Source: Chryseobacterium oranimense
Lineage (GTDB): Bacteria > Bacteroidota > Bacteroidia > Flavobacteriales > Weeksellaceae
Assembly (NCBI RefSeq): GCF_900129755.1
Contig: NZ_FQWT01000001.1
Span: forward strand, 310,001 to 374,000
Direction: 5' to 3'
DNA: 64,000 bases
In this document: positions 51,993 to 55,775 of the stretch, piece after piece
Layout: every line of letters starts with the position of its first letter
How positions within the stretch are numbered: position 1 is the first letter of the stretch
Translations under genes and position numbers: made by a program
Notes under the pieces: model-generated
The model's database searches: none
Told to the model about the DNA's origin: nothing
Seen by the model: the letters and a program-made list of their open reading frames with translations, nothing else

Positions 51993-52718
51993 CTATCCTT
52001 CCGAATTCAGAGTTCCGCCGGCATAATTTGTAAAAAAATCGGATCTGTAAACTTCACCTATAGGAATTTCGAATTCATCGATATAAATATTATGATTGTC
52101 AAATGAATCAATAAAATCGAGATTAACCACATACGATTTACTTACCCGGAGAAAGGTATTCCAGGAAATTTTCTGGTGGATGGTTTTGAGATTCATGGCT
52201 GTGATAAGTTTTTGCTGCCGGGTATGGATAACGACATAGTCTTTCAGGCCTTCTATAAATTTAATGTCTGAAAAACTGATTTTATAGAATCTCCGGTCCG
52301 CTTTGATGAATAAAAAATCTGCCGTATTGGACTCTACCGTATTTTTCACTGTATCCTTAGACAAAAGTTCCGTGTAGAGAATAGCTTTTTCTATGGCTTT
52401 TTCAAGTCTTTTGGCATCTATCGGCTTCAACAGGTAATCTACAGCTTCCAGTTCATAGCTTTTTAAGGCATATTGGGAATAGGCCGTGGTAAAAATAATC
52501 AGTGATTTTTTGGGCAGCATTTCGGCAAATTCCAATCCGGTTACCATCGGCATCTCGATATCCAGAAAAATAAGATCTACCTCATTGGTTTTCAGAAAAT
52601 CCAGTGCTGAAGGAGCATTGGAAAATTCGCCCAGGATTTCGACCTTTGAGGTTTCATTGATCAGTGAACGCATTTCTGCTCTTGCAAGCGGCTCATCATC
52701 TACTATAATACAGTTCAT
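51993..52718 (-). CDS. LytTR-family response regulator
   Basis: A 241-residue response regulator. The receiver (1-120) has Asp7/Asp8, phospho-acceptor Asp53 in LIFLDIEMPMV and the conserved Lys in DYLLKPID. The LytTR DNA-binding domain (about 140-238) reads FLFIKADRRFYKISFSDIKFIEGLKDYV through TFLRVSKSYVVNLDFID. The start overlaps the kinase stop by 4 bp. LytTR proteins bind pairs of 9-bp direct repeats about 12 bp apart; such pairs are present at 53854-53931 just upstream of the operon. Confidence 0.95.
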   Translation of the reverse strand: MNCIIVDDEPLARAEMRSLINETSKVEILGEFSNAPSALDFLKTNEVDLIFLDIEMPMVTGLEFAEMLPKKSLIIFTTAYSQYALKSYELEAVDYLLKPIDAKRLEKAIEKAILYTELLSKDTVKNTVESNTADFLFIKADRRFYKISFSDIKFIEGLKDYVVIHTRQQKLITAMNLKTIHQKISWNTFLRVSKSYVVNLDFIDSFDNHNIYIDEFEIPIGEVYRSDFFTNYAGGTLNSEG

Positions 52719-53791: not shown

Positions 53792-53853
53792 AATATTCCG
53801 TAAGTCTTAATCAGAAACAAAAATAGAGAATAACGCAGGAAATCTTTATAATA

Positions 53854-53931
53854 TTATACCAACCCTGTCATTTTTTATACCAATTTTAACGGATGGGATT
53901 TCGTATAAAATAAAAGCGGTTTCGTATAAAA
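53854..53931. promoter_or_regulatory. Two pairs of direct repeats, probable LytTR binding sites
   Basis: TTATACCAA occurs at 53854-53862 and 53875-53883, exactly 21 bp apart. TTTCGTATAAAA occurs at 53899-53910 and 53920-53931, also 21 bp apart. GTATAA in the second pair is the reverse complement of TTATAC in the first, so the two pairs face opposite ways and could serve the two divergent promoters. Known LytTR sites are 9-bp direct repeats with a period of about 21 to 22 bp, and a LytTR gene is the immediate neighbour. Confidence 0.7.
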
Positions 53932-53977
53932 AAAATTTCATACAATGGTATTATTTCTTTCTTTGCCCTGAATTTTA

Positions 53978-54412
53978 ATGCTTATGGAATTAGCCGTTTT
54001 TCAGGAACTTACAAAAGAAATAACTTCAGAATGTTTTTATATGACAGAATCCCAGCAAGAAGAAAAGGTGATACAGATGATTGATCTGCACCATTTTGTG
54101 GAGTGTTATCAGTCACCGATCAGTATTTTAAATTATATTCAGCACCCTATTAACATTGTGGAAGAAAATGGTGTTAAAAAAGGGATTTTATTCTATAACC
54201 TTAGCCACCACACTCCCTACGACTGGAATGTTTTTGAAGAATTTAAAAGACAGAAACAGCTTAAAGAAGTCTGGTTTGTTTTTGTGGAAGAAAACATGGT
54301 TAGCAATACGTTCCGTCATAAAGACTTTATTACCGAGAACAGTATCGAGATATTTTATGACAGGATATTTCTGTTTAATTTCTTCCAATCCACTATCCAT
54401 ATTTTAAAGTAG
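53978..54412 (+). CDS. Unknown protein, candidate LytTR target
   Basis: A 144-residue cytoplasmic-looking protein without signal peptide or membrane helix. It is rich in acidic residues and aromatic residues (QMIDLHHFVECYQSPISILNY; LSHHTPYDWNVFEEFKRQ). No family is recognised. An internal start at MELAVF (residue 3) is possible. The promoter region carries the LytTR-type repeats, so it may be the effector regulated by the LytS/LytTR pair. It is convergent with the SMR gene. Confidence 0.75.
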   Translation: MLMELAVFQELTKEITSECFYMTESQQEEKVIQMIDLHHFVECYQSPISILNYIQHPINIVEENGVKKGILFYNLSHHTPYDWNVFEEFKRQKQLKEVWFVFVEENMVSNTFRHKDFITENSIEIFYDRIFLFNFFQSTIHILK

Positions 54413-54461: not shown

Positions 54462-54797
54462 TCAATGCGTTCCCATTTTCGAAAACACATTAATAACAAT
54501 TACCCCAATAACGATCAAAAGAATTCCTATGATGGCCGGAAGATCCGGAACCTGCTTAAAAGCAACGATTCCAATCATCGTTATGAAAACAATACCTACC
54601 CCGGACCATATGGCGTATGTTATTCCTACAGGAATATGGCGAAGGGTAAGGCTCAGAAAATAAAAGGCGGAAGCATATCCTATCACGGTAACCACAGATG
54701 GCCAAAGCTTTGAAAATTCTTCAGATTTCTTAAGAAAAGTGGTTGCTATGATCTCGAATATAATTGCTAAGGCAAGAAATATATAACTGCGTCCCAT
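54462..54797 (-). CDS. Small multidrug resistance (SMR) efflux protein
   Basis: A 111-residue membrane protein with four transmembrane helices. The conserved membrane Glu is in helix 1 (LALAIIFEIIATTFLKKSEEF), as in EmrE, and the YAIWSGVG motif in helix 3 and LPAIIGILLIVIGVIVIN in helix 4 are diagnostic. It exports cationic compounds or guanidinium against H+. It is a single gene; the natural substrate is not determined. Confidence 0.93.
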   Translation of the reverse strand: MGRSYIFLALAIIFEIIATTFLKKSEEFSKLWPSVVTVIGYASAFYFLSLTLRHIPVGITYAIWSGVGIVFITMIGIVAFKQVPDLPAIIGILLIVIGVIVINVFSKMGTH

Positions 54798-55528: not shown

Positions 55529-55612
55529 ATGGTAACTTACATCGGTATCGCAACATGTGTAGTAGTATTCGCTTCTTATTTTGCAACAGTAAAAAGAGAA
55601 CAAAGAAACTAG
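55529..55612 (+). CDS. 27-residue membrane micro-protein
   Basis: ATG to TAG encodes 27 residues: MVTYIGIATCVVVFASYFA followed by the basic tail TVKREQRN. It is a single hydrophobic helix with a positively charged end, the usual pattern for a membrane micro-protein (N-out/C-in by the positive-inside rule). It has its own promoter (55449-55479) and the transcript would end at the terminator at 55776-55801, about 310 nt in all. The polar-to-helix TC motif recalls the transmembrane ends of the proteins at 57677 and 58032. Function unknown. It may accompany a respiratory or transport complex, or the transcript may act as an sRNA. Confidence 0.6.
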   Translation: MVTYIGIATCVVVFASYFATVKREQRN

Positions 55613-55775
55613 TTCTATTTAAAGGAAAGCTTATAGAACATCTATATTAATTGTATTGTTTATGTTTTTAATCTGAAAATGTCAGATGACGCTCTTTTAC
55701 TCATTAGAGTAAAAGGGCCGGAAAACATAACTTTTTATCTGAATTTCATAGCAAATTTTATATATCCCAATAGTC

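Follow-up and report, generated by a model that had tools for sequence, protein, structure and literature searches.

Within the window, the whole 64-kb stretch of DNA that was analysed, the region between a membrane histidine kinase gene and a divergent gene, designated X here, contains two head-to-head pairs of 9-bp direct repeats, each facing one of the two genes. Because the pairs are kept at the same spacing in many relatives, the LytTR response regulator encoded with the kinase very probably switches on both mirror-image promoters, that of its own kinase-regulator operon and that of X, from separate sites, so far as this can be judged from sequence comparison. The locus supplies a precise operator, TTnGTATAA-N12-TTnGTATAA-N32-TTTG, which is kept across genera.

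Table 1. Positions of the operator half-sites, putative promoter elements and genes in the window.
Feature	Position	Strand	Basis
LytTR response regulator, 241 aa, receiver + LytTR DNA-binding domain	51993..52718	-	Pfam PF00072 4.8e-23, PF04397 1.1e-15
PF06580-type membrane histidine kinase, 358 aa	52715..53791	-	His_kinase 2.8e-23; 4-bp overlap with regulator gene
Putative kinase-regulator promoter -7 box TATTTTTG (TAnnTTTG)	53818..53825	-	read from sequence; in register TAnnTTTG in 54/56 regions
Kinase-side half-site, promoter-proximal, TTGGTATAA on - strand	53854..53862	-	motif scan + ortholog alignment
Kinase-side half-site, promoter-distal, TTGGTATAA on - strand	53875..53883	-	motif scan + ortholog alignment
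X-side half-site, promoter-distal, TTCGTATAA	53900..53908	+	motif scan + ortholog alignment
X-side half-site, promoter-proximal, TTCGTATAA	53921..53929	+	motif scan + ortholog alignment
Presumed X promoter -7 box TTTCTTTG	53958..53965	+	TTTG 32 bp past pair; TA of TAnnTTTG absent
Gene X, 142 aa, no strongly hydrophobic stretch	53984..54412	+	conserved start + family; nuclease-like predicted fold (weak)

A sequence-only reading of the region had described two opposed pairs of direct repeats with an exact 21-bp period, which share a TTATAC core in opposite orientation. The repeats are where it placed them: TTATACCAA occurs at 53854-53862 and 53875-53883, and TTTCGTATAAAA at 53899-53910 and 53920-53931, each at a period of exactly 21 bp. 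They make up one motif and not two. Read on the promoter-facing strand, all four half-sites are a single 9-mer, TTnGTATAA, and both pairs are TTnGTATAA-N12-TTnGTATAA, one motif with a 9-12-9 layout present in both orientations: TTGGTATAA-N12-TTGGTATAA leftward, from 53883 down to 53854, and TTCGTATAA-N12-TTCGTATAA rightward, at 53900-53929. A LytTR-type operator consists of direct repeats of about 9 bp with 11-13 bp between them, with a LytTR-domain protein encoded alongside; both pairs have this form, and the neighbouring regulator has the domain (PF04397). The likeness to published LytTR sites claimed in the earlier reading also holds, the 9-12-9 layout being equal to that of the sites in the available passages of PMC6193735 and PMC4847170.

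Each pair faces its own promoter, with 32 bp from the end of the pair to the TTTG of the -7 box; this is about where a LytTR-type operator, which lies directly ahead of the -35/-33 position, would be expected, though the start sites are predicted ones and the X-side box lacks the TA. Across 56 orthologous regions, the kinase-side box has the form TAnnTTTG in 54 when in register, while the X-side box has TTTG in all 56 and TA in none, which makes the X promoter assignment the less firm of the two. A promoter -33 TTG would be expected between pair and -7 box. A TTG 2-10 bp past the pair is found in 8/56 regions on the X side and 11/56 on the kinase side, and is not conserved; this lack of conservation suits an activator-dependent promoter. 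If the -7 box lies at -12 to -5, where the flavobacterial TAnnTTTG box is placed in the available part of PMC9723704, the half-sites would fall near -70 to -62 and -49 to -41.

The kinase has hydrophobic stretches at about residues 48-108 and the H-box stretch NPHFLFN; its Pfam matches at E values up to 0.1 are His_kinase, two ATPase matches, and one spurious match. Kinases of the BtsS/YpdA type carry an LYT-type membrane sensor and a GAF domain. At the same threshold the kinase here matches neither, and so differs from that type. This genome has 11 LytTR matches, the regulator among them; its predicted phosphoacceptor is D53, and it scores 154.6 bits against the BtsR family, below the cut-off of 246. 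Of the names lytS/lytTR given to these genes earlier, lytS is a loose label, since the kinase has PF06580 yet no LYT-type sensor or GAF match.

Loss of the repeats from orthologous regions had been named as the result that would count against the reading; the opposite was found. From 98 congeners, 56 of 57 orthologous intergenic regions were extracted, with one (L093, from genome G089, X identity 39%) left out, its arrangement not being divergent. Column identity over the 56 regions is 98-99% in the half-sites, against 70-77% in the 12-bp spacers and 68-71% in the stretch to the -7 box; position 3 of the half-site is variable. On the X side, the 21-bp period and the TTTG at 32 bp are each found in 56/56 regions. 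On the kinase side the period is found in 54/56 and the TTTG at 32 bp in 52/56, but for two regions (L094 and L095) the automatic register chose wrong spacings; read in register, both have a period of 21 and TTTG at 32, so that the TTTG count becomes 54/56. The exceptions in TTTG distance are L025 (31) and L031 (30). Kinase-side sites are degenerate in L094 and L150 (same genome as L095), at 13/16 in register with TTTG at 32. The two pairs are separated by 4 to 25 bp, most often 17 (36/56), with the two misregistered rows (L094, L095) set aside.

A second set of 70 X loci, from Chryseobacterium, Epilithonimonas, Paenimyroides/Myroides and further relatives, was obtained by scanning GTDB genome contigs after the rule had been fixed. 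The kinase gene is divergent in 70/70, both pairs score 14-16 of 16, and TTTG stands at 32 in 70/70 on the X side and 67/70 on the kinase side. The two sets overlap, because many genomes are common to both; the most telling rows are three Epilithonimonas loci and four Paenimyroides/Myroides loci, the latter with X identities of 32-37% and kinase identities of 48-50%. In a locus from another family (L152), X is 29% identical and both pairs score 15/16 with TTTG at 32. At the near end, the X relative of highest identity in the scan (92%) is from a Chryseobacterium.

Outside the locus the motif is scarce. In the window, the paired pattern has two matches, both with 0 mismatches, where 0.07 would be expected by chance at up to 2 mismatches, and no further match was found at that tolerance. 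Among 272,752 other positions of the same genome (the window, its intergenic region masked, and stretches from other LytTR loci, with some overlaps counted twice), the best score is 13/16, reached at 5 positions. When the orthologous intergenic regions were resampled 11,200 times under a first-order Markov model, no resample had a score of at least 15 on both strands, and three had 15 on one. This genome has two copies of the exact pair, and both are at this locus. A scan of the 98 congener genomes for the promoter-type pattern, at up to 1 mismatch, gave 110 matches, against 5 for a reversed control; 107 of these are at this locus, twice per genome in 52 genomes and once in G037, G062, and G052. 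Two of the other three are at a paralogous LytTR locus in G039, and one is in G051; this last lies between two genes with no LytTR neighbours within a 3-kb stretch, and was taken as chance. That 107/110 near-exact matches fall at this locus suggests that the strict regulon may consist of the two promoters here.

A genome scan had been proposed as the way to find the regulon. For strict sites it leads back to this locus and both its exact pairs; for looser ones it gives no excess over control. At up to 3 mismatches, the pair alone has 230 matches in this genome against 378 for the reversed control, and the pair with TTTG at 32 has 9 against 10, two of the 9 being the present sites. Matches at 3 mismatches are thus not above control, and weaker targets, if there are any, would be indistinguishable from chance by motif. 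The single 1-mismatch match of the pair alone in this genome is inside an apparent coding gene, which we take to be folD.

Related operators were found at paralogous systems. Nine paralogous kinase loci were compared, with paralogous regulators 48-55% identical. The six closest to the L097 kinase (L154-L159) all have a kinase-facing pair scoring 13-16 of 16 with TTTG at 31-32; in two of them (L155 and L156) a variant core, GTCTA, is common to both half-sites. In two further loci (L103 and L104) the pair scores 14, with TTTG at 32 in L104 and not in L103. The G076 paralog has its three best sites (15/16) around the kinase gene, none of them facing it, and a kinase-facing site of 13/16 without TTTG. 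The divergent gene at five of L154-L159 is of TonB-receptor type (by Pfam in three genomes, by N-terminal likeness in two), with a receptor-side pair in 3/5 and TTTG at 32 in one. The operator seems to follow the regulator, paralogous regulators apparently reading the same core beside other genes.

The stretches examined around this genome's remaining LytTR genes have different repeats or none. Some have 21-bp-period repeats of their own, at L186 2082 (G000:C13), L106 2143 (G000:C9), and L184 2493 and 927 (G000:C8); these differ in sequence, for example TTCATCGGAAA and AATGTAATAAA, and the one at L184 2495 has a loose likeness to the present motif (12/16). In 33 non-coding stretches near LytTR genes, the commonest period is 21 bp (4), followed by 32 bp (3), with 0-1 for all others. 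In four paralogous systems an extra protein of about 130 aa is encoded between kinase and LytTR regulator (L096 1905-2300, L099 1688-2083, L100 1138-1524, L101 1246-1641); it resembles a lone receiver domain (Response_reg 5.6e-8, for the L099 copy, the one tested). Elsewhere in the genome there is a tandem 21-bp repeat, TTTTTATAAGTTAAAAACCAG, at G000:C5:3975-4067, which is present in G067 too.

The region can be pictured as a bidirectional operator-promoter. Two molecules of the phosphorylated regulator would bind each 9-12-9 repeat, both on the same face of the helix and immediately ahead of RNA polymerase. Leftward, it would activate its own kinase-regulator operon in a positive feedback, and rightward, gene X; the two pairs would work separately, each rigidly tied to its own promoter. 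The sequence-only reading had anticipated self-control together with control of the divergent gene, and gains support from the finding that each pair faces one promoter at the same 32-bp distance, with binding itself a prediction.

Divergent operators can act with either sign, and the regulator might instead repress both promoters (autorepression), or activate one and repress the other. Repression of either kind is unlikely: each pair ends 32 bp upstream of the TTTG, at about -41 and not over the predicted start site, the interval from pair to -7 box has no conserved -33 TTG, and LytTR sites with the same geometry activate, according to the accessible passages of PMC6193735 and PMC4847170. A different protein could conceivably read the sites, whether a global factor or another LytTR regulator; the genome has ten other LytTR matches, and one other locus carries the loosely similar repeat mentioned above. 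Yet 107 of the 110 near-exact matches in 98 genomes lie at the locus of the neighbouring regulator, the site recurs at the loci of the nearest paralogous regulators, and in the stretches examined the other LytTR loci of this genome have different repeats or none, all of which makes a different reader quite improbable.

Standing head to head, the pairs are necessarily inverted repeats as well, and the four repeats might be imagined as one large palindrome, or an RNA or DNA hairpin, acting as a unit. The distances within each pair and from pair to promoter are fixed, but the gap between pairs is not; its variation from 4 to 25 bp would rotate the halves, by which a whole-operator palindrome is rejected, and action as a unit is very hard to credit. 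The 186-bp intergenic region is AT-rich, with runs of A and T in which repeats could arise by chance, but the background counts, the contrast in identity between half-sites and spacers, and the presence of both pairs in 70/70 loci leave this a negligible prospect. Separate activation of both promoters by the neighbouring regulator is the reading considered very probable here, if slightly less so for the TA missing from the X-side box.

The rightward target, X, had been noticed earlier as a divergent gene starting at 53978. The gene stands but its start does not: the conserved ATG is at 53984 (MEL...), this M being kept in 76/76 aligned X proteins, whereas the ATG at 53978 is present in some rows only. 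No Pfam family matched X, and against NCBIfam there was one match, to a sigma factor, at E 0.034, far below cut-off. X is present in 57/98 congeners. The regulator goes with it: an ortholog at least 77% identical is in the same genome in 54 cases (with a partial match in G062), the regulator identity is 58% in X-bearing G052 and 55% in G050, and G089 has a distant regulator beside X; genomes without X have no regulator above 56% identity among the matches listed. Of 395 class-wide genomes searched, with about 10-13 candidates scored per genome, X was found in the window copy alone; among 296 order-wide genomes there were 14 hits within the genus and 2 beyond it. These class- and order-wide negatives are weak, given the few candidates scored per genome, and the GTDB contig scan then found the Paenimyroides relatives. 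One of the two hits outside the genus, L153, was not counted as an X ortholog because the match is confined to the end of a protein of 285 aa. This protein (L153 1453-2307, another family) shares the X end over 52 columns at 29% identity; an earlier stretch of it, VELK, resembles a nuclease motif.

The AlphaFold model of X is of good quality (pLDDT 87.4, pTM 0.83) and has many nuclease-fold proteins among its best structural matches (XisH, Hjc, splicing endonucleases, restriction enzymes), all of them weak. The best Foldseek E value is 1.9e-3, with none at or below 0.001, and the best Z is 8.1 over 108 residues at 10% identity, a level where chance arrangements occur; acetyl-CoA carboxylase and GTPase structures are among the matches too, and unrelated folds come further down. 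We take XisH, 2inb, 2okf, Hjc, and the splicing endonucleases to be one group of PD-(D/E)XK nuclease-like structures. Many of the best structural matches of X, weak as they are, belong to this group, but the catalytic (D/E)-x-K is not conserved in the family: 59/76 X proteins have D/E-x-K where the third strand ends, and the window copy has N-L-S. The invariant residues (76/76) are M1, F6, G67, F70, W97, V99, and F129. The model points weakly to a nuclease-like fold, in which the catalytic motif is not conserved.

X is linked to the sensor under differing gene orders. In G050 and G216 a DUF6268 gene comes after X, and X and the kinase diverge; in G089 all four genes run the same way, as X-DUF6268-kinase-regulator. 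The DUF6268 gene adjoins X in the distant members L093, L150, and L151, once in a row with kinase and regulator. In the window, X is followed at 54462-54797 by a gene on the other strand for a transporter of the Small multidrug resistance type; farther on, after a long AT-rich stretch, there may be a gene for a 27-aa hydrophobic peptide at 55530-55613 (MVTYIGIATCVVVFASYFATVKREQRN, read by eye).

X may be an output effector of the sensor or a feedback partner, a main output or an accessory; conserved with the kinase across genera, it becomes directly testable as one sensor's main output or partner. A more speculative extension, which we hold to be somewhat doubtful, is that the three genes form a closed module, the kinase-regulator pair having no strict target beyond itself and X. 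X would then be a dedicated cytosolic pseudo-nuclease partner feeding back on kinase or regulator, and the mirror-image promoter would hold the sensor:partner ratio fixed. If so, X would be an accessory two-component-system component of an undescribed sort.

The operator type is already known; the present system and X are undescribed within the literature searched. No description of this operator, system or X, and no defined operator of a flavobacterial LytTR two-component system, was found among the matches listed from the open-licence PMC literature, and the available passages of two papers on flavobacteria in which LytTR is mentioned (PMC10197871, PMC5395568) describe no LytTR binding site.

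The YpdA/YpdB and BtsS/BtsR systems of Escherichia coli resemble the present one in pairing a LytTR regulator with a kinase. In the accessible excerpts, YpdB recognises a direct repeat of GGCATTTCAT, with a 21-bp period, as here, in the printed oligonucleotide, and has yhjX as its only target (PMC4847170); each of the two systems is reported to have one target gene (PMC4847170, PMC5552118). Those targets are transporters, however, and the present system differs further in its kinase, without LYT sensor or GAF match, and in its predicted autoregulation. The LytTR Regulatory Systems (HdrRM and BrsRM of Streptococcus mutans, and the LRS-like operons of Bacteroides) are alike in having two direct repeats close ahead of the promoter of the regulator's own operon (PMC6193735). 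According to the passages available from that paper, the 9-bp repeats of LytTR-regulated operons lie directly ahead of -35 and are in most cases separated by 12 bp; in the Bacteroides LRS-like operons the repeats are 11 bp long with an 11-bp interval, and a promoter ending TATCTTTG follows after another 11 bp; and positive feedback has been shown for HdrR. Those systems are distinct from two-component systems, the regulator being held inactive by a co-transcribed membrane inhibitor, whereas the present regulator carries a receiver domain and is paired with a histidine kinase; and here a mirror-image duplicate of the site would serve a second gene.
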